Assembly: GCA_035316325.1 (NCBI GenBank)
Contig: DATHJB010000075.1
Span: forward strand, 1-64,000
Length of the DNA stretch: 64,000 nucleotides
Reading direction: 5' to 3'
DNA from: Acidimicrobiales bacterium
GTDB taxonomy: Bacteria > Actinomycetota > Acidimicrobiia > Acidimicrobiales > VFJN01
The notes under the pieces are model-generated. The model did not search any database. It was not told the origin of the DNA and saw only the letters and a program-made list of their open reading frames with translations. The translations under genes and the position numbers were made by a program. Below, one piece after another: positions 49,527 through 62,442 of this stretch (its first letter is position 1; every line of letters begins with the position of its first letter).

Positions 49527-50804
49527 ATGCAGACGAATAATCGACCAGGGCTGAGGAACGGCGGTTCGTCGGATGCGGCGATCCGCGACATCGCGGCGGG
49601 CAACTCGCGGACGTCGGTGACGTTCCTCCCGGAGCCGGCGCGCCGGGAGCGGTGGCACCTGTTGATCTCGGCCGACGATCACGTCGTCGAGCCGGCGCAC
49701 CTCTTCGAGGGGCGTGTGCCCCGGGCGCTGGCGGACCGGGCGCCGCGGATCGTGGAGACCGATACCGGGGATCAGGAGTGGGTCTACGAGGGGTCGCGGC
49801 AGTCGCAGATGGGCCTCTCGGCGGTCGCCGGTCGCCCGATCTCGGAGTGCACCAACGAGCCGACCCGGTTCGAGCACATGCGCCGAGGTGCGTGGGATCC
49901 GACTGCTCGCGTGGCGGACATGGACACCGACGGGGTCTACGCCTCGGTCAACTTCGCGTCGGCCCTGTGCGGCTTCGCCGGCCAACGCCTCCAGCTGGGG
50001 GTCGATGCCGAATTGGGCCTGGCCGTGCTGCGCGCCTGGAACAGCTGGTTCCTGGAGGAGTGGTCGGGGAGCCACCCCGATCGGTTCATCCCGTGCCAGC
50101 TCCCGTGGCTGGGTGATCCCGACGTGGCCGCGAGTGAGATCCGGGCCAACGCGGCGCGGGGCTACAAGGCCGTCGCTTTCACCGAAGGGCCGCACGAGCT
50201 CGGTCTGCCCAGCCTGCACAGCGGGCACTGGGACCCGTTCTTCGAGGCGTGTGAGGAGACGGGGACCGTCGTGTGCCTCCACGTGGGGTCGTCGTCGACC
50301 ATCCCCACGACCGCCCCGGACGCACCCGGCGACACCATCGCCGCGCTGTTCTTCGGCTACTCGATGTTCTTCACCGTCGACTGGTTGTTCTCGCAGGTGC
50401 CCATCCGGTTCCCGGGGCTGCGGATCGTGATGGCGGAGGGTGGCCTCGGTTGGGTGCCGGGGCTGATGGACCGCCTGGTGCACATGGAGCGCTACCAGCA
50501 GATCTTCGGGTCCTGGGACCGGCGCGGCCCGACACCCCTCGAGGTCCTCCGGCGCAACTTCTACTTCTGCGTCATCGAGGACGCGATGACCCTGCGGATA
50601 GCCGACTCGGTCGGCGTGGACCGGATCCTCGTCGAGTCGGACTACCCGCACCTCGACTCGACGTGGCCCGACACCCAGCCGGTGATGTGGGGCCAGCTGG
50701 GTCGGCTCGCTCCCGATGCCAGGGAGGCGATCGCCTGGCGCAACGCCGCCGCGCTCTTCCGGCACGAGGTGACGCCGGCGCAGGTCGACGCCTTCCTCAC
50801 CTGA
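49527..50804 (+). CDS. Amidohydrolase-2 family metal-dependent hydrolase/decarboxylase
   Basis: The 425-residue TIM-barrel protein has the amidohydrolase_2 features SADDHVVEP (about 47-55; first metal ligand region), a His in VCLHVGSS (about 250-257) and the late Asp in VESDYPHLDSTWP (about 369-381). Relatives include ACMSD- and gamma-resorcylate-type decarboxylases and lactonases. The start ATG 49527 has GGAAGGA upstream, but the regulatory motif at 49532-49546 lies just inside it, so GTG 49617 is a serious alternative. It heads a cotranscribed set with the dehydrogenase and aldolase. Confidence 0.8.
   Translation: MQTNNRPGLRNGGSSDAAIRDIAAGNSRTSVTFLPEPARRERWHLLISADDHVVEPAHLFEGRVPRALADRAPRIVETDTGDQEWVYEGSRQSQMGLSAVAGRPISECTNEPTRFEHMRRGAWDPTARVADMDTDGVYASVNFASALCGFAGQRLQLGVDAELGLAVLRAWNSWFLEEWSGSHPDRFIPCQLPWLGDPDVAASEIRANAARGYKAVAFTEGPHELGLPSLHSGHWDPFFEACEETGTVVCLHVGSSSTIPTTAPDAPGDTIAALFFGYSMFFTVDWLFSQVPIRFPGLRIVMAEGGLGWVPGLMDRLVHMERYQQIFGSWDRRGPTPLEVLRRNFYFCVIEDAMTLRIADSVGVDRILVESDYPHLDSTWPDTQPVMWGQLGRLAPDAREAIAWRNAAALFRHEVTPAQVDAFLT
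49532..49546. promoter_or_regulatory. Cluster motif, copy 1 (GACGAATAATCGACC)
   Basis: This 15-base motif matches copies 2 and 3 at 12 or more positions (consensus GWCNAATARTCGACC). It lies at the start of the amidohydrolase gene, just after the annotated ATG. It may be an IclR operator or hold a -10 element (AATAAT). Confidence 0.55.
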
Positions 50805-50867
50805 CGTGCGTCCCCACACCGGTCCAGTCGGCCCGTTGTGACCGACCCAACGACAAGGAGCCCGGCA

Positions 50868-52334
50868 ATGAGCCGATCTGGAGCACCCCGACACGACTTG
50901 GTGATCGCTGGATCGCGGGTGGCGCCCGACGACGGGCACTACCCCCTGGTGAACCCCGCCACCGAAGAGGTCCTCGCCTACGCGCCGGAGGCCTCCGCCA
51001 CCCAGGTCCGCCAGTCGGTGGGTGCCGCCCGGGAGGCGTTGGGTGCATGGTCGTCGACGTCACCCGGCGAGCGATCCCGGATCCTGAAGCGGACGGCGGA
51101 CCTGCTCGTCGAGCGGACGGACGAGCTGGTCGAGCTCGGCTGTGCCGAGACCGGCGCGACCGAGCCGGTGTTCCGGGGCATGCACGTCGCGGCGACAGCG
51201 GCCCGCTTCCGGCGCTACGCCCGGGCCGCGACCCAACCGCTCGACGGGGTGCTCGATCCGATCTCGATGCCCGACACGATCCTCGGTCCCGGCGGCTACG
51301 TGTCGGCGGTGACGGTGCGCCAGCCGGTCGGCGTCGTCGGGGCGATCACCTCGTACAACAACCCCCTGGCCAACACGGCGGGGAAGCTGGCGCCGGCGCT
51401 GGCGATGGGCAACACCGTCGTGGTCAAGCCGGCTCCCCAGGATCCGCTGTGCGTGCTCATGCTCGCCGACCTCCTTGCCGAGGCCGGACTCCCCGCCGGG
51501 GTCTGCAGCGTCGTCACGGGCTCCGGGCCGGAGGTGGGCGCCGCACTCGTGGACGCCGACGTGGACATGGTCTCCTTCACCGGCAGCTCCGAGGTGGGCG
51601 CCCGCATCGCCGGGAACGCCGGGCCCCAGATGAAGCGGCAGCTCATGGAGCTCGGCGGGAAGGGGGCGGCCATCGTCACCGACGACGCCGACCTGGCCTC
51701 GGCTGTGCGGGGCATCGAGACGGTGTGGACGTTCTACAGCGGGCAGATCTGCACGGCACCGACCCGGGTGGTGGCGGACAGGGCCGTGGCCGGCGAGCTC
51801 GTCGAGCGGCTGGCGAAGCGGGCGGCCGAGCTCGGTGTCGGCGACCCCCGCGACTCGGCGAACGACGTCGGGCCGGTCATCTCGGCTGCTCATCGTGAGC
51901 GGGTGGAGCGCTTCGTCCGGCTCGGCCGCGAGGAAGGGGCGAGCCTCGTCGCCGGCGGTGCCCGTCCCCAGCTCGAGCGGGGCTTCTACGTGGCGCCGAC
52001 GCTGTTCGTGGACGTCACGAACGACATGGCGATCGCTCGGGAAGAGGTCTTCGGGCCCGTCGTCGTCGTCATCGCCGTGGACGGCGACGAGGAGGCGATC
52101 GGCGTCGCCAACGACTCCGACTACGGGTTGATCGACTACGTGTGGAGCGCCGACGTCCGACGGGCGCAGCGGATCGGCCGTCGGCTGCGCGCCGGCGGGG
52201 TGCAGATCAACAGTGCGGTCCGGCACATGGAGGCGCCTTTCGGCGGGTTCAAGCGCTCGGGGATCGGGCGCGACTGCGGCGACTTCGCGATGACGGCCTA
52301 CAGCGAGCTGCAGTCGCTCACGTGGGTGTCGTGA
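50868..52334 (+). CDS. NAD(P)-dependent aldehyde dehydrogenase
   Basis: The 488-residue enzyme has SYNNPLANTAGKLAPALAMGN (about 164-184; the Asn at the oxyanion site), the cofactor loop FTGSSEVGARI (about 237-247), the general-base Glu in MELGGKGA (about 261-268) and the catalytic Cys in SGQICTAP (about 293-300). It oxidises an aldehyde to the acid. The start ATG 50868 has GGAG seven bases upstream. Its stop overlaps the aldolase start, so the two are coupled. The substrate is set by the cluster and unknown. Confidence 0.9.
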   Translation: MSRSGAPRHDLVIAGSRVAPDDGHYPLVNPATEEVLAYAPEASATQVRQSVGAAREALGAWSSTSPGERSRILKRTADLLVERTDELVELGCAETGATEPVFRGMHVAATAARFRRYARAATQPLDGVLDPISMPDTILGPGGYVSAVTVRQPVGVVGAITSYNNPLANTAGKLAPALAMGNTVVVKPAPQDPLCVLMLADLLAEAGLPAGVCSVVTGSGPEVGAALVDADVDMVSFTGSSEVGARIAGNAGPQMKRQLMELGGKGAAIVTDDADLASAVRGIETVWTFYSGQICTAPTRVVADRAVAGELVERLAKRAAELGVGDPRDSANDVGPVISAAHRERVERFVRLGREEGASLVAGGARPQLERGFYVAPTLFVDVTNDMAIAREEVFGPVVVVIAVDGDEEAIGVANDSDYGLIDYVWSADVRRAQRIGRRLRAGGVQINSAVRHMEAPFGGFKRSGIGRDCGDFAMTAYSELQSLTWVS

Positions 52335-53053
52335 CGGTGCAGGCGCCCGCCGACGAGGAGTCGCTCCGGTTCACGGTCGCCGCCGCCCGGAGGATGCTGG
52401 GCCGTTCCGGGTGCGACAGCGGGGTGGCAGGCCACGTGTCGGCCCGCGTCGACGGAGAGGATGCCTTCTGGGTCTCGGCCTTCGAGTACTGCGACGAGAC
52501 GCGCCCCGAGACCCTCGTGAAGTCGTCCTTCGACCTCGAGAGGGTCGCCGGCGATCGGGATCCGTCGCCTGCCGTCGAGTTCCACGCCGCGATCTACCGG
52601 GCCCGTCCCGACGTCCGGTCCGTCATCCACACCCACTCCCATTGGGTGTCGGTGCTGGCGACGACCGGGCGGACGGTCGGCCTCTACAACGTCGGGGCCG
52701 TCCTCTTCGATGACGACCAGGTCTTCGTCGAGGACGACGGCTCGACGCCACCGGTCCACGGGCCGCGACTCGCGAAGCTGCTCGGTGACCGGCGGGTGCT
52801 GATCATCCGCAACCACGGGGCGATTATCGCCTCGCAGTCGGTCGAGCGAGCCGCGATCGAGGCGATCACACTCGAGGAGACCGCGCGCTATGACCTCGAA
52901 GCGAGGTCGGTGGGCGGTGAGGAGCTCACGTCCGCCTACGTGGCGCTCACCCGACCGGAGTACGAGCGCTACTACCTGCCGCACATGTGGGCGGCGAACC
53001 TGCGACGCCTCCGCCGGACCGATCCGGACCTGTTCGGCGACGGCCTCCCTTGA
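52331..53053 (+). CDS. Class II aldolase/adducin family protein
   Basis: The 240-residue protein has the metal-binding motif VIHTHSHWVS (His pair about 100-102) and RNHGAIIAS (third His about 160), as in class II aldolases and the related aromatic-acid decarboxylases. The N-terminal Gly-rich GRSGCDSGVAGHVSARV loop binds the phosphate or carboxylate of the substrate. The start GTG 52331 overlaps the dehydrogenase stop as GTGA. Family members cleave C-C bonds of hydroxy-acids or decarboxylate dihydroxyaryl acids; which applies here is open. Confidence 0.85.
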   Translation: MTVQAPADEESLRFTVAAARRMLGRSGCDSGVAGHVSARVDGEDAFWVSAFEYCDETRPETLVKSSFDLERVAGDRDPSPAVEFHAAIYRARPDVRSVIHTHSHWVSVLATTGRTVGLYNVGAVLFDDDQVFVEDDGSTPPVHGPRLAKLLGDRRVLIIRNHGAIIASQSVERAAIEAITLEETARYDLEARSVGGEELTSAYVALTRPEYERYYLPHMWAANLRRLRRTDPDLFGDGLP

Positions 53054-53078
53054 CACGACCTGCTCCGCCGAGCACTAT

Positions 53079-53090
53079 CGCCCTAGGGCG
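53079..53090. repeat. Perfect 12-bp palindrome
   Basis: CGCCCTAGGGCG is a perfect palindrome between the aldolase gene and the P450 gene. It may be part of a terminator or a binding site; no T-tract follows. Confidence 0.5.
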
Positions 53091-53106
53091 GCTATTCGCC
53101 TGCATG

Positions 53107-53121
53107 GACTAATAGTCGACC
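53107..53121. promoter_or_regulatory. Cluster motif, copy 2 (GACTAATAGTCGACC)
   Basis: Copy 2 lies 15 bases before the P450 ATG. Its core GACTA-A-TAGTC is a perfect 11-bp palindrome, consistent with a dimeric repressor site. Confidence 0.6.
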
Positions 53122-53136
53122 AGAGGCGGTTCGCGA

Positions 53137-54261
53137 ATGTCCACCAAGGGTCCGTCATCCGTTCTCGGTGAGCTCGACGTCGACCACGACGGCTTGACCG
53201 CCGGGTTCGACCTCTACGGCTCCACCTACCTGTCGGATCCGATGCGGGTGCTCGGGCAGGTCCGCTCACTCGGGGGGCGCTACGCCGTCGGCCGGGGCTG
53301 GCTGGCCGTGTTCGACGAGGACCTGATCGCGGCCGGCTTCCGGGACGAGCGCCTCCGGGTTCCGAGCCTCCCCGATCTCGGCTTCGTCGGCCACCAGTTC
53401 GACACGATCACGGCCTTCCACGACTCCCTCATCTCCCCGCGGTCGGGCAGCGTGCACCGTGCAGGCCGCTCCAAGCTCTCGAAGGTCGTGGCCGACATGG
53501 CGGCCGGCGGTGTGGACGCCATCGTGGACGAGCTGGACCAACGGCTCTCGTCCGCCGCCGACTCGTCGCAGCCCATCGGCCTCTACCCCGAGGTCGTGCT
53601 CCCTTCCGTGGCTGCCGCCGCCTGCCGGTTCCTGGTCCTCGACACGGGCCACGCCGACGGGCTCGCGGACGTGATGCCGTGGCTCAACGCCTCCTTCACG
53701 TTTCGGGTGGGCAGGGAGCACGAGGCCATCAGTGCCGGCATCCGGCGCTACCACGAGCTGGTGGCGGCCATGGGCTCCGAGGTCGAGCACACGGTCCTCG
53801 AACAGGTGCTCCTCGGCGGGTTCGAGACGACCGCGGCGGGCATCACCAACGCCTGGGCCGTCCTGCGAACCAGCCCGGACAGCTCCCGGCGGGTGCCGCC
53901 GACGGTCGATGAGATCGCCGCGGCGGTCAGCGCCGAGCCGCCCCTGGCCGGAGCGTTCCGGTACGCGTCGACGTCCGTCCAGCTGGGTGAGATCGACGTC
54001 GAGCAGGGCACCCTCGTGTACCTCGCCGTGCCGGTGCCGGACGGCCGGAACCTGCCGCTGTCGAGCCACACCGTCTTCGGGGGTGGGCACCACCGCTGCG
54101 TCGGTCGGTTCCTGGGTGCCGCCGAAGTGGAGGCGAGCCTGCAGTTCCTGCTCGGCGGCGCCTGGCAGATCGACTTCGTCGGCGATCCGCCCCTGTCGCC
54201 GAACGCGATCGGCACCCGGGCGATGCAACCCATCGTGACGGTCACCCGAGGCCGGCGATGA
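53137..54261 (+). CDS. Cytochrome P450 lacking the ExxR motif
   Basis: The 374-residue protein is a P450: I-helix GGFETTAAGITNA (about 226-238, with the Gly-x-Glu-Thr-Thr proton relay) and heme loop FGGGHHRCVGRFLG with Cys about 321. The K-helix ExxR motif, nearly universal in P450s, is absent: the segment before EPPLAGAFRYAS reads EIAAAVSA, with no Arg at the expected place. It is also about 30 residues short. It likely monooxygenates a cluster substrate, if it folds and holds heme. The start ATG 53137 lies 15 bases after a cluster motif copy. The next gene overlaps as ATGA. Confidence 0.8.
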   Translation: MSTKGPSSVLGELDVDHDGLTAGFDLYGSTYLSDPMRVLGQVRSLGGRYAVGRGWLAVFDEDLIAAGFRDERLRVPSLPDLGFVGHQFDTITAFHDSLISPRSGSVHRAGRSKLSKVVADMAAGGVDAIVDELDQRLSSAADSSQPIGLYPEVVLPSVAAAACRFLVLDTGHADGLADVMPWLNASFTFRVGREHEAISAGIRRYHELVAAMGSEVEHTVLEQVLLGGFETTAAGITNAWAVLRTSPDSSRRVPPTVDEIAAAVSAEPPLAGAFRYASTSVQLGEIDVEQGTLVYLAVPVPDGRNLPLSSHTVFGGGHHRCVGRFLGAAEVEASLQFLLGGAWQIDFVGDPPLSPNAIGTRAMQPIVTVTRGRR

Positions 54262-54782
54262 ACGCCACCGACGATCCCGCGCTCGAGATCGCACACCGCC
54301 ACCGGAGAGAGATCGCCCGCATCATCCGGGCCTACGCCCACGATGTCGACCGGCGTGACTACGACCACCTGGGCACCCTGCTCAGCGACGAAGCGGAGCT
54401 CGTCGTGGAGGTGGCCGGGGCACCACTGGTCACCATCGCCGGAGCCGATCGGATCACCGACGCCATCCGAGCAGGCCACCGGAGATGCGTCGCCACCTCA
54501 CACCTGCTCGGGCAGATCTCGATCGACGTCGACGGCGACGGCGACGTGGCGACGGCCGAGTCCTACTGCCACGCCCACCACCTCGACGTCGACGCTCCCG
54601 GCGTCGCCCGGGTGATGGTGCTGCGCTACCTGGACCGCTTCGAGCGCACGGACCGGTGGCGGATCCGCCGTCGACACCTCGTCACCGACTGGACCGAGTA
54701 CCGCCTGACCAGCCCACCCGATCGGCCCGACCCGGACGGGCCCCGACCTTGGAGCGCTCATGCACTTCGTCCCCATCGGTGA
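54258..54782 (+). CDS. NTF2-like (SnoaL-type) protein
   Basis: The 174-residue protein has a cone-shaped NTF2 fold pattern: IARIIRAYAHDVDRRDYDHLGTLLSDEAEL (about 19-48), a central SHLLGQISIDVDGD and the final DRWRIRRRHLVTDW. Such proteins serve as small isomerases, hydratases or as beta-subunit-like partners of oxygenases. The ATG overlaps the P450 stop by four bases, suggesting a partner for it or for the following dioxygenase. Its last 23 bases overlap the dioxygenase gene. Confidence 0.8.
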   Translation: MNATDDPALEIAHRHRREIARIIRAYAHDVDRRDYDHLGTLLSDEAELVVEVAGAPLVTIAGADRITDAIRAGHRRCVATSHLLGQISIDVDGDGDVATAESYCHAHHLDVDAPGVARVMVLRYLDRFERTDRWRIRRRHLVTDWTEYRLTSPPDRPDPDGPRPWSAHALRPHR

Positions 54783-55653
54783 GGCCTTCGGGGCCCAGAT
54801 CGTCGACGCCGACCTCCGAGGCCCGCTCGACGTCCCGACCGCCGAGGCCCTGCGCGATGCGCTCGGCACCCACCACCTGCTGGTGCTGCGTGGCCAGGGC
54901 CTCCAGCCCGCGGACCAGGTCCGGATCATGGAGGCCGCATCGGGCCCGGTGCTCGACGAGCGCGCCGACGGCAGCCTCCACAGCTTCGTGTCCAACGCCG
55001 ACCCCGATGCTCTCGTGCGGGGCGACAACCGCTTCCCGTTCCACTCCGACTTCGGCTTCACCCCGGAGCCCCTCTGGGCCCTCTCCCTGTACGGCATCCA
55101 CGTCGTTCCCGGGGCCGACACGTTCTTCGCCGACACCGTCGCCGCGGCCGCCGCCCTCGACGAGCCGACGCGCGCCAAGGTGGCCGAGCTCACCGTGACC
55201 CAGATGTACAGCTTCGACATCTCCTACGACCGCGACCACCGGCTGCGGCTGGCCGACATCGGGGAGGACGCCGATCCGTCCACCTACCCACGGGGGTCGT
55301 ACCCGGTGCTGGGTCGGCACCCCCGGCTCGAGGTCGCCTACCTCCGGGTCTCCGAGCAGCAGTCGAGCCACATCGACGGGCTCGACGAGTGCGAGAGCGA
55401 AGCCGTCATCGCCGAGCTGTTCGAGCACATGTACAGCGATCGGTTCACCTACGTCCACCGCTGGGAGCCCGACGACCTGGTGATCTGGGACAACCTGGCG
55501 GTCCAGCACGGACGGGCCGCCTTTCCCGTCGCCCGGCACCGCCTCCTCCGGCGAGTCACCTGCTCGCCGCTGACGTTCGCCGAGATCATGGCCGACATCG
55601 TCGTCCCTGACGGGTTCGGCGCCAAGGCCGTGATCGGTGGTGGAACGCCCTGA
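54760..55653 (+). CDS. TauD/TfdA-type Fe(II)/2-oxoglutarate dioxygenase
   Basis: The 297-residue enzyme has the HxD motif in FPFHSDFGF (about 94-98), the distal His in AVQHGRAAF (about 249) and an Arg in RRV (about 266) that would bind 2-oxoglutarate. It would hydroxylate or cleave a small acid using O2 and 2-oxoglutarate. The start ATG 54760 has GGAG five bases upstream. It closes the P450-NTF2-dioxygenase unit and converges on the IclR gene. Confidence 0.85.
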   Translation: MHFVPIGEAFGAQIVDADLRGPLDVPTAEALRDALGTHHLLVLRGQGLQPADQVRIMEAASGPVLDERADGSLHSFVSNADPDALVRGDNRFPFHSDFGFTPEPLWALSLYGIHVVPGADTFFADTVAAAAALDEPTRAKVAELTVTQMYSFDISYDRDHRLRLADIGEDADPSTYPRGSYPVLGRHPRLEVAYLRVSEQQSSHIDGLDECESEAVIAELFEHMYSDRFTYVHRWEPDDLVIWDNLAVQHGRAAFPVARHRLLRRVTCSPLTFAEIMADIVVPDGFGAKAVIGGGTP

Positions 55654-55689
55654 GAGCCACCGGCGGCAGCCGCACGACGCTGCCCCGGT

Positions 55690-56622
55690 TCAGCGGCGGC
55701 GCACCTCGGTGGCGACCGCCGCGGCGGCTGACTGGAGGCACTCCGCGGCCTCCACCACCTCGGCGCCGGTGAGCGTGTCGCCCGTCCAGTTCGCGGAGAG
55801 GGCCAGCGGTTCGCGCAGCGGCGCCGAGAGGACCGGCGCCTGGATCTGCCCGACCTGGTACCGGTGCCGGGGCTTCACCTCCTCGAGGAAGTACGGCACG
55901 TCGTTGAGTCGGGCCGCTGCCAGGCGCTTGTGGTCGGTCGGATCGACCACCCGTGCGGACCCGCGCAGCTTGTTCTGGACGGGTTCCAGCTCGTGGCCGC
56001 TCGGGAGATCGAGCGTCACGATGTACCCGCGTCGGCGTGCACCTTCCACGACGCGCTGCATGGTGCGGAGCGCATCCGGCGTGAGGGGCGGGTTGGCCGA
56101 TCGGAGCCAGGCGTCCCACTGCGAGGCGTCGGTCCAGGCCACGTGCACTGCCCCGTACGGGGGGTTGAAGGGCACCCGCACGCCCACGCGCAGGACGCCG
56201 CCGAACAGGTTGGTCTGTCCGATCACGTCGAGGATGACGATCTGGTCCTCGATCACCGTCGTCACGTTGATGGGGGATCCGATCTGCGCCGCTACGCGAC
56301 GGATGGTGTCGTGGGCAGGTTCGAGATCGGGGAAGCGGGCCTGAGCCGCCCGGCTCGCGGTCACGAAGGCCGGCCCCAATCGGAAGTCCCTCCGGGTCGG
56401 ATGCTGGATGAGGTAGCCGGCCTGGGTCAGCGTGATGAGGATCGCCAGGCAGGTGCTCTTCGTCATCGCGAGCGTCCGAGCCAGCTCCGAGGCGCCGAAG
56501 CTCCGGTCCGGGTACCGGGCGAGGTGCTCGATGATCGTCACCACCCGGACGGTCGGGTTCGACGGTGAGTCGGCCCACCACTGTGTGGCTTCGGTCGTCG
56601 GGGTTTGGCGCTTCACATCCAT
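55690..56622 (-). CDS. IclR-family transcriptional regulator
   Basis: The 310-residue protein has an N-terminal winged helix (VRVVTIIEHLARYPDRSFGASELARTLAMTKSTCLAILITL, about 25-65) and a C-terminal effector domain with GAFxA-like patterns (IGSPINVTTVIEDQIVILDVIG, about 110-131; YGAVHVAW). IclR proteins control catabolic operons in response to pathway metabolites. The start ATG 56622 is used; GTG 56661 extends it. It faces the SDR gene across a region that contains cluster motif copy 3, and is the likely regulator of the cluster. Confidence 0.85.
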   Translation of the reverse strand: MDVKRQTPTTEATQWWADSPSNPTVRVVTIIEHLARYPDRSFGASELARTLAMTKSTCLAILITLTQAGYLIQHPTRRDFRLGPAFVTASRAAQARFPDLEPAHDTIRRVAAQIGSPINVTTVIEDQIVILDVIGQTNLFGGVLRVGVRVPFNPPYGAVHVAWTDASQWDAWLRSANPPLTPDALRTMQRVVEGARRRGYIVTLDLPSGHELEPVQNKLRGSARVVDPTDHKRLAAARLNDVPYFLEEVKPRHRYQVGQIQAPVLSAPLREPLALSANWTGDTLTGAEVVEAAECLQSAAAAVATEVRRR

Positions 56623-56727
56623 GGCGATTTGGCGATCGTACTGCCGCGATCCGCCGATCACCGCAGGCCAGCGGACATCCCCGTACTCGTTGACCGCAGC
56701 TTCGTCGGAGTGTTATACGTACACCCG

Positions 56728-56742
56728 GTCAAATAATCGACC
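56728..56742. promoter_or_regulatory. Cluster motif, copy 3 (GTCAAATAATCGACC)
   Basis: Copy 3 lies between the divergent IclR and SDR genes, 105 bp from the first and 76 bp from the second start. It could control both. Confidence 0.55.
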
Positions 56743-56818
56743 GAGGGGGGAGTGTTGACGTGAGTGAGCGAGGTCCGGCACGTCCGGGCGGGGACCGCGG
56801 CGTCGGGCGGCGTCGGCG

Positions 56819-57580
56819 GTGAGCACCTTGCCGCTGACCGGGACGCTGGCGGTGGTCACCGGCGCCTCCCGGGGGATCGGGGCGGCGACGGCCGTCCGGC
56901 TCCACGGCCTGGGATCTCACGTCGTCCTCGTCGGCCGAGACGCTGACGCGCTCGGTCGCGTCGAGGCGAGCCTCGGATCGTGCTGTTCGTCGCTCGTCGC
57001 CGACCTGTCGGCGCCTGGCGCAGGAGCCGCCGTCATCGACCAGGTCGTGCAGCATCGAGGCGGTGTCGACATCCTCGTCAACAACGCCGGTGTGTCCGTC
57101 CTGGAACCCGTCGAGGACGGGGACCCGGCGGCGTGGCGGACGATGCTGGAGACGAACCTGGGGGCGGCCATGGAGTGCACACACGCCGCGCTCCCACATC
57201 TGCTCCTCGCGGCCACCACCGGCAGCCGCAGGGTGGCCGACGTCGTGGCCATCAGCTCGGTGGCAGCCCGTCGGCCGCGCAAGTACGCAGCCGCCTACAG
57301 CGCGACCAAGGCCGGGGTCAACGCCTTCTTCGAAGCACTCCGGCAGGAGGTGTCGGGCCGCAGCGTGCGCATCTCCACGATCGAAGCCGGTGCCGTGGAC
57401 ACCACGTTGAACCGGCACACGCGGCCCGCGGTCCTGCAGGAGCTGAAGAGGGACGCAGGCCCGTGGGAACCGCTGCGTCCCGCCGACGTGGCCGACGCGG
57501 TCGCAACGGCGGTGACGGCCCCTCGACACGCGTCCTACAGCCAGACCCTGCTCCGACCGACGGGCGATGCACGGCCCTGA
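56819..57580 (+). CDS. Short-chain dehydrogenase/reductase
   Basis: The 253-residue classical SDR has the cofactor glycines TGASRGIG (about 13-20), NNAG (about 88-91), the catalytic Ser in ISSVA (about 142-146) and YSATK (about 158-162). It oxidises a hydroxyl or reduces a keto group with NAD(P). The start GTG 56819 is the first start codon of the open frame. It is followed after 138 bp by the transporter operon. Confidence 0.9.
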   Translation: MSTLPLTGTLAVVTGASRGIGAATAVRLHGLGSHVVLVGRDADALGRVEASLGSCCSSLVADLSAPGAGAAVIDQVVQHRGGVDILVNNAGVSVLEPVEDGDPAAWRTMLETNLGAAMECTHAALPHLLLAATTGSRRVADVVAISSVAARRPRKYAAAYSATKAGVNAFFEALRQEVSGRSVRISTIEAGAVDTTLNRHTRPAVLQELKRDAGPWEPLRPADVADAVATAVTAPRHASYSQTLLRPTGDARP

Positions 57581-57614
57581 CACCAGAACCTGACGGGGTC
57601 ATCACACCTCCGGC

Positions 57615-57630
57615 TTGACGACCTGTCAGA
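57615..57630. promoter_or_regulatory. Upstream copy of a tandem operator-like motif
   Basis: TTGACGACCTGTCAGA matches the motif at 57649-57664 at 13 of 16 bases. The two start 34 bp apart, about three helical turns. Confidence 0.4.
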
Positions 57631-57647
57631 TGGGGGGCATCTTCAGA

Positions 57648-57664
57648 TCTGACGATGTGTCAGA
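57648..57664. promoter_or_regulatory. Perfect inverted repeat TCTGAC-N5-GTCAGA before the transporter operon
   Basis: A perfect 6-bp inverted repeat with a 5-bp spacer, 54 bp before the start of the substrate-binding protein gene. With the copy at 57615 it looks like a two-site operator for an unidentified dimeric regulator. Confidence 0.5.
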
Positions 57665-57718
57665 ACCCGGGGCGGGAGCTCTCGTCGAGCTTCCCGCTGC
57701 GACAGCGAAGGGATCGAC

Positions 57719-58930
57719 ATGACGGCAAACTCACGACGACTGGCCGCGGCGCTACTGGCGCTCGGCCTGGTCACGACGGCCTGCAGCCGGGGCGACGACT
57801 CCGATGCGGACGACGCGCCATCCACCACCGTGCCCGCAGAGGTCGAGGCATCCAAGGACTTCGAGCTCGACGAGCCGGTCAAGCTCGTCGCGATGATCTC
57901 CGATCCGACCAACTCGAGTGACGGCAACGCCATCGCCGACTTCAACGACGGTGCCCGGATGGCCATCGACGAGATCAACGAAGCCGGTGGGCTCGGCGGG
58001 CACGACATCGAGCTGGTCACGATCGACACACCACCGGTGGGCGACGCCGTGGTGAACGCCCTGAACCTCGCGGTGGCCGAGAACCCGACGGCGATCCTCG
58101 GGCCGGTGTCGAGCACAGCCACCCTCGCCATCACCGAGCGGGTCGCCGAGGAGGAGATACCGCTCATCCACAACTCCACCGACCCGGCACTGGCGACGGA
58201 TGGCGAGGCGGGCAACGAGTGGGTGTACGCCTCACGGCCACGCAACGACGAGGCCGCCTCGGTGGCGGCGTCGTTCCTCACCGATGAGCTCGGAGCCGAG
58301 AACGTCGGCCTCCTCTCGGTGAACGCCAGCTTCGGCCAGCAGGGCGTGGCTGCGGCCAAGGAAGCGCTCGGCAGCGCGGCGGGCGCCGAGCGGAGCTTCG
58401 AGTACAACGCCACCAACCTCAGCGAGCCCATCCAGGCCGTCGCCGACAGCGACGCGGTGTTGGACTGGGGAACCCCGAACACTCTTGCCGCATCGGTGGT
58501 CACGGCCGCGCAACAGGGCCTCGACGTGCCGTACATGGGCCCGGGCAGCATCGGCTTCGCCTCGTTCAAGACCGGTGTCGGCGACGACAGCGTGCTGGCG
58601 AACGTCTACGGCACCGTCGACTGCATCCCCACGGACGACGAGCGCGACTACGTCGCCGAGTGGGCCGGCCGCTTCGAGGCGGAGTTCGGGTACACACCTT
58701 CGTACAGCGCGGCGGAGCTGTACGACTCGGTGTTCCTGCTCCGTCACGTGATCGAGGCCGCCGAGAGCGCCGATCCCGCAGCCATCCGCGACGGGCTGGC
58801 GGGTATCGAGGTCGCGACCGGCATGTGCGCCGTCACCTACCGCAACGACAACGGCTTCCTCTCGCAGGAGAGCACCGTGGGTCGCTACGAGGACGGCGAG
58901 TTCGTGGCGGTCAAACGGTACGGCGGATGA
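57719..58930 (+). CDS. Liv-type ABC transporter substrate-binding lipoprotein
   Basis: The 403-residue protein has a signal peptide with lipobox TTAC, a Ser/Asp-rich spacer and a Peripla_BP_6 (type I) fold: VKLVAMISDPTNSSDGNAI, FNDGARMAIDEINEAGGLGG (about 76-95) and ILGPVSSTATLAITERVAEE (about 130-150). It captures an amino acid, amide or other small acid outside the membrane and delivers it to the permeases. The start ATG 57719 has GAAGGGA upstream. It heads a five-gene importer operon. Confidence 0.9.
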   Translation: MTANSRRLAAALLALGLVTTACSRGDDSDADDAPSTTVPAEVEASKDFELDEPVKLVAMISDPTNSSDGNAIADFNDGARMAIDEINEAGGLGGHDIELVTIDTPPVGDAVVNALNLAVAENPTAILGPVSSTATLAITERVAEEEIPLIHNSTDPALATDGEAGNEWVYASRPRNDEAASVAASFLTDELGAENVGLLSVNASFGQQGVAAAKEALGSAAGAERSFEYNATNLSEPIQAVADSDAVLDWGTPNTLAASVVTAAQQGLDVPYMGPGSIGFASFKTGVGDDSVLANVYGTVDCIPTDDERDYVAEWAGRFEAEFGYTPSYSAAELYDSVFLLRHVIEAAESADPAAIRDGLAGIEVATGMCAVTYRNDNGFLSQESTVGRYEDGEFVAVKRYGG

Positions 58931-58973
58931 GCTACCCCGCTCGACGACCAGGAGGCGGGGTGCCCGAGCCGGG

Positions 58974-58993
58974 CCCCCGCCTCGTGGCGGGGG
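58974..58993 (+). promoter_or_regulatory. Intercistronic hairpin between binding protein and permease
   Basis: CCCCCGCC, a TCGT loop and GGCGGGGG form a perfect 8-bp GC stem 11 bases before the permease ATG. Such hairpins can partly terminate or protect the upstream message, so that more binding protein than permease is made. Confidence 0.5.
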
Positions 58994-59003
58994 GCCGTTA
59001 GGG

Positions 59004-59879
59004 ATGTCCCGCTTCGTCCTCCTCACCATCAGCGGCCTGGCCGACGGTGCCATCTACGCCCTGATAGCGCTCGGCTTCGTGCTGATCTACAAGGCGACCG
59101 GTGTCATCAACTTCGCCCAGGGAGACCTCGTCACCCTGGGTGCCTACGTGGCGCTCTGGGCCTACCAGGACCTGCGCCTCACCCTGGCAACATCCGCACT
59201 CGTCGCGGTGCTCGCGCTGGCCTGCACCGGCGCGGTGCTCGAACGGGTCGCGGCCGCGCCATTGCGGGGTCGGTCGGTGCATGTCGTGGTGATCGCCACG
59301 CTCGGGGCCGCCTTGGTGATCCGGTCGCTGGTGATCCGCTGGAAGGGCACCAGCCCGCAACGGCTGCCGGGCTTCTTCGGCTTCCGGACCGTCGAGGTGC
59401 TCGGTGCCCGGATCCCGATGCAGAACCTGCTCATCCTCGGCGCCGCCGCGCTGGCGCTGTCCCTGGTCGCCCTGCTCCTGCAGGGCACGTCGTTCGGTCG
59501 CCAGGTGCGGGCTCTGGCGACGGACCGGACCACCGCACAGCTCATGGGCATCTCCGTCGACCGGTTGTCCATGGCGGCCTTCGCCCTCGCGGCTGCGCTC
59601 GCCGCGGTCGGAGCGGTGCTGGTGGCGCCCACGCAGCAGCTCACGCCCACGTTCGGGTTCGGCCCCATGCTGTTCGCCTTCGCCGCCGCCATCATCGGCG
59701 GGTTCGGTCGGATCGGCGGCGTCGCCCTCGCGGCCGTGCTCCTCGGCGTCCTCCAGCAATGGGCCACCGGCTACATCGACCCCTCGTACCGTGAGATCTA
59801 CCCCTTCGTCCTCATGCTCGGGATCCTCGCCGTGCGCCCGAAGGGCCTGCTGCCCGAGCAGGTGGGCCAGCGTGTCTGA
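59004..59879 (+). CDS. livH: Branched-chain-type ABC permease, LivH-like
   Basis: The 291-residue protein has about eight hydrophobic helices. LADGAIYALIALGFVLIYKATGVINFAQGD (about 11-40) is the hallmark of the LivH subunit, and GFGRIGGVALAAVLLGVL is the conserved loop that contacts the ATPase. It forms the membrane pore with the LivM-like protein. The start ATG 59004 follows a hairpin; TAGGG abuts the ATG. Its end overlaps the next gene by eight bases. Confidence 0.9.
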   Translation: MSRFVLLTISGLADGAIYALIALGFVLIYKATGVINFAQGDLVTLGAYVALWAYQDLRLTLATSALVAVLALACTGAVLERVAAAPLRGRSVHVVVIATLGAALVIRSLVIRWKGTSPQRLPGFFGFRTVEVLGARIPMQNLLILGAAALALSLVALLLQGTSFGRQVRALATDRTTAQLMGISVDRLSMAAFALAAALAAVGAVLVAPTQQLTPTFGFGPMLFAFAAAIIGGFGRIGGVALAAVLLGVLQQWATGYIDPSYREIYPFVLMLGILAVRPKGLLPEQVGQRV

Positions 59880-60939
59880 GCTCTCGGTCGACCCGGCGGG
59901 CGCGGCCGGCGGGCAGCCGACCGCGCCGGCGACGGTTGGGCCGGTCCGCCCGCCGGTGTACGCCGGTCGGCAGGGCCTCGGGCTCGCCGCCTTCGCCGTA
60001 GCGCTCGCAGTGATCGTGGTGCTGGCCGACTCGCCGTACAGCCAGGGCCTGGTGGGCCAGTGGGCCACCCTGGCCATCGCCGGGCTCGGGTTCTACCTCG
60101 CGTTCGGCGTGGGCGGGCAGTTCTCCTTCTGCCAGGCCGCGCTGGTCGGCCTCGGCGCCTACAGCTCGGCATGGCTGACCCAGGACCACGGTCTGCCCTT
60201 CGCCCTGGGGTTGCTGGGCGCGGTGGCCATCACCGCAGTGGTTGCCGCCGGCCTGTTCGCACTGGTCAAACGTTGCGACGCGTTCTACTTCGCCATCGCC
60301 ACCCTCGCGTTCGGGTTCCTCGCCGTCGTGGTCTTCCGCGAGTGGTCGTCCTTCGCGGGGCCGGGCGGCGAACGGCGGTCGCTGCCCGGCATCAGCCTCG
60401 GCGGCGACGAGCTCTCGGGGCGGTCCTCGGCCGCGGCTGTCGTGGTGGTCCTGCTGCTGGCACTCGGCCTCACCCTGCTGGTCGAACGCTCGCCGCTCAA
60501 CCGGGAGGCCGCCGCGGTGCGCCACCTACCGCTGGCGGCGTCCACGTTCGGGATCGGCGTGATGCGCATCCGAGCGACCATGTTCGTCGCCGGGGCCGCC
60601 TACTCCGGCGCCGCGGGAAGCCTCCTCGCCCATCGCAACCGGGTGCTGAGCCCCGAGGCGTTCGACATCGAGCTGGCGATCGACATCTTCCTCGTCCTGC
60701 TATTCGGCGGTCTGGGATCGGCATGGGGTCCGGTGCTCGGCGCAGCGTTCGTGGTGTGGGCACCCGAGCAGCTCCGGTTCATCGGCCGCGACCGCGACCT
60801 GGTGTTCGGCGGGCTCCTCATCGCCATCATGATCTTCGTACCCGACGGACTCGTGGGCCTCGCCGGGCGCGTCCAGGGCCTCGTCGCCGACCGCCGCCGG
60901 GGACGCCCGGCAGAGCCCGCCGTGGCGGGGGAGGCCTGA
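59872..60939 (+). CDS. livM: Branched-chain-type ABC permease, LivM-like
   Basis: The 355-residue protein has a Pro-rich N-terminus and about nine hydrophobic helices. WATLAIAGLGFYLAFGVGGQFSFCQAALVGLGAYSSAW (about 63-100) and LFGGLGSAWGPVLGAAF (about 278-294) are LivM signatures. The start GTG 59872 overlaps livH; the longer frame from 59404 is a shadow. TGATG joins it to the next gene. It partners LivH-like protein in the importer. Confidence 0.9.
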   Translation: MSELSVDPAGAAGGQPTAPATVGPVRPPVYAGRQGLGLAAFAVALAVIVVLADSPYSQGLVGQWATLAIAGLGFYLAFGVGGQFSFCQAALVGLGAYSSAWLTQDHGLPFALGLLGAVAITAVVAAGLFALVKRCDAFYFAIATLAFGFLAVVVFREWSSFAGPGGERRSLPGISLGGDELSGRSSAAAVVVVLLLALGLTLLVERSPLNREAAAVRHLPLAASTFGIGVMRIRATMFVAGAAYSGAAGSLLAHRNRVLSPEAFDIELAIDIFLVLLFGGLGSAWGPVLGAAFVVWAPEQLRFIGRDRDLVFGGLLIAIMIFVPDGLVGLAGRVQGLVADRRRGRPAEPAVAGEA

Positions 60940-61700
60940 TGCTCGTCGCCACCGACGTGCGCGTCACCTTCGGCGGGGTCGTGGCCGTCGACGACCTGAG
61001 CATCGAGGTCGAGCCCGGCGTCGTGCTCGCCGTGGTCGGCCCGAACGGGTCCGGCAAGACCACGCTCCTCAACGCGATCACCGGCTTGGTGCCCTGCCGT
61101 GGCCGGGTGACCGTCGACGGCACCGTCCTGGCCACGGGCCGGCCGGGTCGGGCGCGGCAGGCCCACTGCCTGCGCACCTTCCAGACGCCCCAGGTGATCG
61201 ACGAGCTCAGCTGCATCGACAACGTGCTGCTCGCCACCGAGGACCGGGAAGCCACCGGCCTCCTCGCCAGTTGGGTGACGCGGCGGCAGATGCTCGCCCG
61301 GGAGCACCGACGATGGGCGGCGGCCGAGGCCTGCCTCGAGCAGTTCGGCCTGCGCGAGCAGGCGGTCCTGCCCGCCTCGCGCCTCACCTACGGGCAGCGG
61401 CGGTGGCTCGAGCTGGCCCGCGTCGCCCTCGCTCGGCCCCGCTACCTGCTGACCGACGAGCCGTCGGCCGGCCTCAACGAGGCGGAGACCGTCCGCCTGG
61501 CCGAGCACATCGCTGCGTTCCGCGCCGCCGGGGTGGGGGTGGTGCTGGTCGACCACAAGGTCGACTTCCTCCGCCGCGTCGCCGACCGCGCCGTCGTGCT
61601 GGCGCTCGGCCGCAAGGTGGCCGAGGACCGCATCGAGGCCATCTGGGACCTGCCAGCCGTCCAGGACGCCTACCTCGGGACCCGCCGTGTCATCCGCTGA
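60939..61700 (+). CDS. livG: ABC transporter ATPase, LivG-like
   Basis: The 253-residue ATPase has Walker A GPNGSGKTT (about 34-42), the Q-loop in TFQTPQVI, a signature altered to LTYGQRRWLELAR (about 146-158) and Walker B YLLTDEPSAGLN (about 168-179), with the catalytic Glu and the distal His in VVLVDHKVD. It powers import with its partner. The ATG overlaps the LivM stop as TGATG. The end overlaps the next start by 14 bases. Confidence 0.9.
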   Translation: MLVATDVRVTFGGVVAVDDLSIEVEPGVVLAVVGPNGSGKTTLLNAITGLVPCRGRVTVDGTVLATGRPGRARQAHCLRTFQTPQVIDELSCIDNVLLATEDREATGLLASWVTRRQMLAREHRRWAAAEACLEQFGLREQAVLPASRLTYGQRRWLELARVALARPRYLLTDEPSAGLNEAETVRLAEHIAAFRAAGVGVVLVDHKVDFLRRVADRAVVLALGRKVAEDRIEAIWDLPAVQDAYLGTRRVIR

Positions 61701-62442
61701 GCCCGACGTCGCACCGGCGGCCTCCGTCGATGCGGCGCCGCCGGTCCTCCACATCGCCGGCCTGACCGTCCGCTACGGGTCGATCACCGCCGTGGACGAT
61801 GTCGACCTGACCGTCCCACGGCTCGGCGCCGTGGCCCTGCTCGGCGCCAACGGTGCCGGCAAGACCTCGTTGCTCGACGCCGTGTCGGGGCTCGCCCCGC
61901 ACACGGGCCTCATCGAGATCGAGGGACGCTCCCTCGCCGGCCGCTCGCCCGAGCGCATCGCCCGGCTCGGCATCGCCCACGTCCCGGAAGGCCGGCGGCT
62001 CTTCCCCAACCTCACCGTGCACGAGAACCTCCAGGTGGCACAGAAGGGCCGGAACCGGCGGACCTCGGCCCACGACCCCGACACCATCTACGAGGTGTTC
62101 CCGGCACTGGTCCGGTTGCGCAAGCGACGGGCCTGGTCCCTCTCCGGCGGTGAGCAGCAGATGGTCGCCGTCGGCCGCGCTCTCTGCGCGGCACCTCGCA
62201 TACTGCTGCTCGACGAGCCGACGCTCGGCCTGGCGCCCGTCGTCGTCGACCTGCTCTACGACGCCCTCCAACGGCTGCGCGGTGAAGTCGCCATGCTGCT
62301 CGTGGAGCAGGCGACCGACCTGGCCCTCGCCGTCTGCGACGAGGCCTACGTGCTCACCACCGGCCGGCTCACCCTGCACGCCACCGCCGCCCGCCTCACC
62401 GAGCGCAGCGACCTGCTGGCCACCTACCTCGACGGCGCCTGA
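61687..62442 (+). CDS. livF: ABC transporter ATPase, LivF-like
   Basis: The 251-residue ATPase has an N-terminal extension, Walker A GANGAGKTS (about 57-65), EGRRLFPNLTVHENL (about 100-114), signature LSGGEQQM (about 153-160) and Walker B ILLLDEPTLGLAP (about 174-186). It completes the importer: binding protein, two permeases and two ATPases. The GTG 61687 lies inside the end of livG. It is the last gene of the catabolic cluster. Confidence 0.9.
   Translation: MSSAEPDVAPAASVDAAPPVLHIAGLTVRYGSITAVDDVDLTVPRLGAVALLGANGAGKTSLLDAVSGLAPHTGLIEIEGRSLAGRSPERIARLGIAHVPEGRRLFPNLTVHENLQVAQKGRNRRTSAHDPDTIYEVFPALVRLRKRRAWSLSGGEQQMVAVGRALCAAPRILLLDEPTLGLAPVVVDLLYDALQRLRGEVAMLLVEQATDLALAVCDEAYVLTTGRLTLHATAARLTERSDLLATYLDGA

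Follow-up and report, generated by a model that had tools for sequence, protein, structure and literature searches.

We analysed a 64,000-nucleotide stretch of an Acidimicrobiales genome (contig DATHJB010000075.1, hereafter the window), in which a gene at 53137-54261 encoding a P450 homologue lies within a cluster of catabolic genes. The annotated features of the cluster and its surroundings are as follows:

49527..50804, + strand: Amidohydro_2 family protein, first gene of the cluster (Pfam 9e-30; 48% identity to Rhodococcus plasmid proteins)
50838..52334, + strand: aldehyde dehydrogenase, ALDH (Pfam 5e-152)
52142..53053, + strand: class II aldolase/adducin family protein, longest ORF (Pfam 5.9e-33)
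53137..54261, + strand: P450 homologue without ExxR, 374 aa (HHalign to P450 profile E 2.9e-16; Pfam p450 15.7 bits, cut-off 22.8)
54258..54782, + strand: SnoaL_4 (NTF2-like) protein, its ATG overlapping the P450 stop codon as ATGA (Pfam 8.4e-18)
54760..55653, + strand: TauD/TfdA family dioxygenase, overlapping the SnoaL-like gene (Pfam 8.7e-47)
55690..56661, - strand: IclR family regulator (Pfam 3.5e-7)
56819..57580, + strand: short-chain dehydrogenase, SDR (Pfam 3.8e-45)
57719..62442, + strand: branched-chain-type ABC importer with binding protein, permeases and ATPases (Pfam Peripla_BP_6, BPD_transp_2, ABC_tran)

The genes thus run in the order amidohydrolase, ALDH, class II aldolase, P450, SnoaL-like protein and TauD, followed by the reverse-strand IclR gene, the SDR and the ABC importer. 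Because the longest ORF of the class II aldolase overlaps the ALDH gene, its true start probably lies downstream of the one listed. The P450 ORF has an ATG start, preceded by an SD-like AGAGG, and a TGA stop, and upstream of the ATG the frame stays open for only 7 further codons. The cluster genes as annotated include no ferredoxin or reductase, and from 47.7 to 63.8 kb no annotated neighbour encodes a glycosyltransferase. We also observed a palindrome (GACTAATAGTC, 53107-53117) just upstream of the P450 gene, a possible regulator site, which is present as a single exact copy within the window; the two further intergenic regions that were read showed none.

Related gene arrangements were found on two Rhodococcus plasmids (L035 and L036), in which the 48%-identical amidohydrolase stands ahead of a class II aldolase and a similar importer; the one from R. 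ruber additionally has a canonical P450 close by, along with an ALDH and a PDR/VanB reductase. Comparison of these plasmid clusters with 49527-62442 of the window suggests a shared catabolic pathway. Of the 8 loci read that hold same-order relatives of the SnoaL-like gene, 4 have canonical P450s nearby, one of them with TauD (L144) and another with an amidohydrolase and ABC genes (L140). Collectively, the gene order, the Rhodococcus plasmids and the SnoaL-like relatives near P450s point to a catabolic operon with the P450 as a plausible partner; to name an aromatic or cyclic carboxylate as the substrate would be no more than a guess.

P450 homology of the 374-residue protein

HHalign comparison against a P450 profile aligned residues 23-364 of the ORF (E 2.9e-16), and a profile of 40 P450s that was built without the protein gave it 73 bits, with 0 of 2000 shuffles of its sequence being reported. 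These results identify the protein, on sequence grounds, as a P450 homologue across nearly its whole length, with chance similarity excluded. The protein is very divergent, too much so for the Pfam p450 model to give more than 15.7 bits, under the cut-off of 22.8, or for NCBIfam to return any match; the same Pfam model gives 87-104 bits for five canonical relatives. The top phmmer match among solved structures was CYP260A1 (E 1.2e-6), with similarity confined to the part from the I-helix to the Cys loop, and this best-matching structure differs by its K-helix EEGMR and a longer meander.

The ERR-triad module and the haem site

The ERR triad, in which the Glu and Arg of the K-helix ExxR are joined by the meander Arg as third member, is regarded as the folding clamp of P450s, and almost all P450s need the K-helix and meander for folding. 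All three triad residues are missing from the protein encoded at 53137-54261. The features that bear on this loss, and on what is retained, are:

53347..53358, + strand: ERLR (residues 71-74), the protein's sole ExxR, N-terminal and outside the K-helix (motif search and alignment)
53455..53469, + strand: C-helix HxxxR (H107, R111), retained here as in 40 of 40 other P450s
53788..53793, + strand: site after residue 218 with a gap of about 23 residues in the helix G-H region (alignment)
53815..53832, + strand: I-helix GGFETT (227-232), acid-alcohol pair kept (translation and alignment)
53911..53937, + strand: K-helix region EIAAAVSAE (259-267), ExxR absent, 4 residues fewer than in other P450s (alignments)
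53959..53961, + strand: R275, the invariant beta-strand Arg, kept (alignment)
54028..54075, + strand: shortened K'/meander (298-313, VPVPDGRNLPLSSHTV), ANRDP block and triad Arg missing (alignment)
54076..54105, + strand: Cys loop FGGGHHRCVG (314-323) with ligand Cys321 (translation and alignment)

The K-helix region reads EIAAAVSAEPPLAGAFR, and counting back from R275 puts the ExxR place at A262-A-V-S265 (AAVS), in agreement with the original prediction, which had located it within AAAVSAEPP; a MAFFT alignment instead puts a 4-residue gap there. Both readings leave the K-helix place without Glu and Arg, as had been claimed, and the possibility that an ExxR might be found elsewhere in the sequence came down to the N-terminal ERLR alone. 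The motif is present in 40 of 40 aligned other P450s (from the same order and beyond) and, within the same genome, in each of the 28 other P450s whose K-to-Cys region is complete, a count that leaves out L115; it is also present in L113, which is cut by a contig end, and in the damaged L114. Judging from the alignments, the loss is wider than first reported, the whole ERR-triad module being reduced: beyond the Glu and Arg of the K-helix, the K'/meander (ANRDP...) is 10 residues shorter after residue 298 and lacks 3 more, including the meander Arg, after residue 307. Most of helix H is gone as well. The protein's length, which had been flagged as short, proved unexceptional, with ExxR-bearing P450s of 367-400 aa being common in the comparison set.

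The heme loop and I-helix were correctly predicted to be intact, with FGGGHHRCVG (314-323) following the Cys-loop signature FxxGxxxCxG and GGFETT (227-232) following the (A/G)GxxTT acid-alcohol motif. The His and Arg of the C-helix HxxxR, which are haem-propionate contacts in known P450s, are retained too. Taking as near-invariant the columns (n = 37) that are conserved across 85% or more of the 40 other P450s, we found that the protein keeps 22, including all 11 haem and I-helix columns (H107, R111, G228, E230, T231, R275, F314, G317, H319, C321 and G323). Those lost comprise the E and R of ExxR, the A-N-R-D columns and the meander R, without exception, together with further core columns (F118V, G167V, A327G and R328A). 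Were losses random, the probability of keeping all 11 would be about 8e-4, a value that is indicative only, as the grouping was made post hoc.

Each full 30-codon segment of the gene has a GC3 of 0.87-0.97 and the final 15-codon piece one of 0.73, and the several losses are separated and all in frame. With GC3 steady and the stop codon overlapping the next start (ATGA), a frameshift or sequencing error appears unlikely, and we saw no sign of an error having removed part of the K-helix, a caution attached to the original prediction. An ExxR hidden in another frame or elsewhere was likewise rejected as an explanation, given that no P450 motif was seen in the other two frames and that the sole ExxR is N-terminal.

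Confidence was low for an AlphaFold2 model built from an 11-sequence alignment (pLDDT 57.9, pTM 0.58), and very low over residues 300-318; the model places a short helix at 257-265. The low confidence may be caused by the thin alignment; viral-contig P450 scans for deepening it gave 13 loci from two scans. The Foldseek matches of the model are P450s (P450BioI, StaP and OxyD; TM about 0.6), so that the model agrees with a P450-like fold, and it offers nothing reliable on what replaces the triad.

Relatives and known systems compared

In a maximum-likelihood tree, the branch leading to the protein is about 3.5-3.7 changes per site long, compared with a median of 0.52. The protein is drawn beside a group of compact P450s, although its placement is unsure. 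Searches with the protein across whole genomes of relatives (148), the order (397), the phylum (396) and the class (296), which are overlapping sets, found no orthologue; nor was one found in GTDB contig scans, a plasmid tblastn search or a viral contig scan, the contig scans relying on exact short peptide patterns that would miss moderately diverged orthologues. Matches were limited to generic P450s, alike at the I-helix/Cys-loop part, and a profile search of 298 genomes revealed no ExxR-less relative among the loci read. Given the extremely long branch and the lack of any orthologue found, conservation of the reduced form cannot be shown.

The compact P450 group (L033, L012, L029, L028 and L040-L049; 376-400 aa, with a VVDRYAT motif, in many actinobacterial genomes) is widespread in the phylum. 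Its members resemble the protein in size and in a reduced helix G-H region and form its nearest group in the tree, but they keep ExxR, ANRDP and the meander Arg, are only 25-27% identical to it and share no neighbourhood with it; membership in this group is suggested by the tree but not established. In several compact-group P450s, CxA stands in place of CxG after the Cys ligand.

The original prediction had likened the protein to CYP157 of Streptomyces, and the comparison holds in part, in that both have the Cys loop and lack the K-helix ExxR. CYP157 loses the motif by an altered Arg (EVLW, EQSLW or EQILW; PMC3599690) and is described as functional (PMC3990721). Measured against this published description, CYP157 keeps the Glu, replaces the Arg and alters the K-helix motif only, whereas our protein has AAVS rather than an ExxW-type motif, lacks both residues and has also lost the K'/meander and meander Arg. 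In human CYP4B1, inactivity has been attributed to a substitution within the meander (PMC12233900). No conservon operon, a CYP157 feature, lies upstream of the gene, its neighbours being catabolic genes.

Glycosyltransferase activators of the EryCII/DesVIII type share with the protein a P450 fold with parts of helices G and H missing. EryCII, from which the Cys and helices C/C' are absent while J, K, K' and L are retained (PMC3391682), is otherwise a near mirror image of the protein, in which Cys321 and the C-helix contacts are kept and K/K'/meander are reduced. Neither feature of this type, an absent haem Cys or a partner glycosyltransferase nearby, was found. By the features compared, the protein belongs to the P450 superfamily, through its homology and Cys loop but without the ERR triad, and to neither the CYP157 nor the EryCII type.

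A haem-binding P450 or a decaying one

The reading we favour, to which we give about an even chance, is that of a compact P450-fold haem-thiolate protein, strongly diverged and encoded in a catabolic operon whose genes are tightly coupled; it would most likely still bind haem and oxidise the imported substrate or a derivative. The protein would probably be an extreme variant of the ExxR-less P450s for which CYP157 provides a precedent. The ERR-triad scaffold (the K-helix Glu/Arg and the K'/meander with its partner Arg) would have been lost through in-frame deletion and substitution, with the Cys ligand, His/Arg haem contacts and I-helix Glu-Thr pair kept. As the annotated cluster has no ferredoxin, electrons would come from partners encoded elsewhere. 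Of this reading, the sequence, the homology, the losses and retentions and the gene order are observed, and expression, haem binding, activity and the class of substrate are inferred. It is supported by the full-length P450 homology and the P450 matches of the low-confidence model, by the retention of 11/11 haem and I-helix columns with losses concentrated in the K-helix and meander, by the even GC3, the undisturbed frame and the ATGA overlap followed by the further TauD overlap, and by the occurrence of SnoaL-like relatives near canonical P450s and of the R. ruber P450 in a related cluster. Taken together, the haem residues that are kept, the steadiness of codon use and the coupling within the operon favour a haem protein under selection. 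The favoured reading is weakened by the very long branch, the failure to find an orthologue and the lost core columns, and also by the very low model confidence at 300-318 and the finding that mutation of an ExxR residue in most P450s gives inactive, misfolded protein (PMC3990721). A bolder version, that of a catalytically competent haem-thiolate P450 which folds without any ERR triad and with a shortened meander, such that the whole module would be dispensable and only the Cys ligand and haem contacts essential, seems to us less likely than not.

Decay is a serious and strong rival to a working haem protein, and has a real, if minority, chance of being correct. Under relaxed selection the product would no longer fold or bind haem, with the frame held by coupled translation of the SnoaL-like and TauD genes, or with decay being recent. 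The branch length, the several core deletions (including that of the folding clamp) and the absence of a found orthologue are all consistent with this, as is the presence in the same genome of at least one plainly damaged P450 (L114). Surveys class one-motif P450s as fragments or pseudogenes, counting 34 in 48 Streptomyces species (PMC6408508). Decay is harder to reconcile with the retention of every haem and I-helix column, and with 374 codons of uniform GC3 that hold no stop or frame break despite great divergence. The tight coupling to the SnoaL-like and TauD genes could also fit a protein that is no longer a monooxygenase but, with haem or a ligand bound, serves the SnoaL-like/TauD enzymes as partner or sensor, by analogy with the P450-like EryCII acting on a glycosyltransferase (PMC3391682); we consider this improbable, as the I-helix Glu-Thr pair and Cys would be needless in a pure scaffold and EryCII-type proteins lack the Cys. 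Finally, the draft assembly is fragmented (244 contigs), and an assembly or sequencing artefact might have removed parts of a normal P450, but the separate in-frame losses, the even GC3 and a divergence that runs along the whole protein rather than just at the gaps make this highly improbable.

Genome surveys set ExxR-less P450s aside as fragments or pseudogenes. A natural P450 without the whole module, with haem site and operon intact, would directly test what the fold needs; if the gene is dead, it would be an instructive case of in-frame P450 decay inside a coupled operon.

The same 6.4-Mb genome (G000) holds about 30 P450 genes and is P450-rich for its order. Two of these (L105 and L108, on contigs C132 and C25) are nearly identical and apparently recent duplicates, and in the damaged L114 (G000:C105:15800-16757) the region from the K-helix EELLR to the meander end is deleted, with EELLR joined to a downstream stretch.
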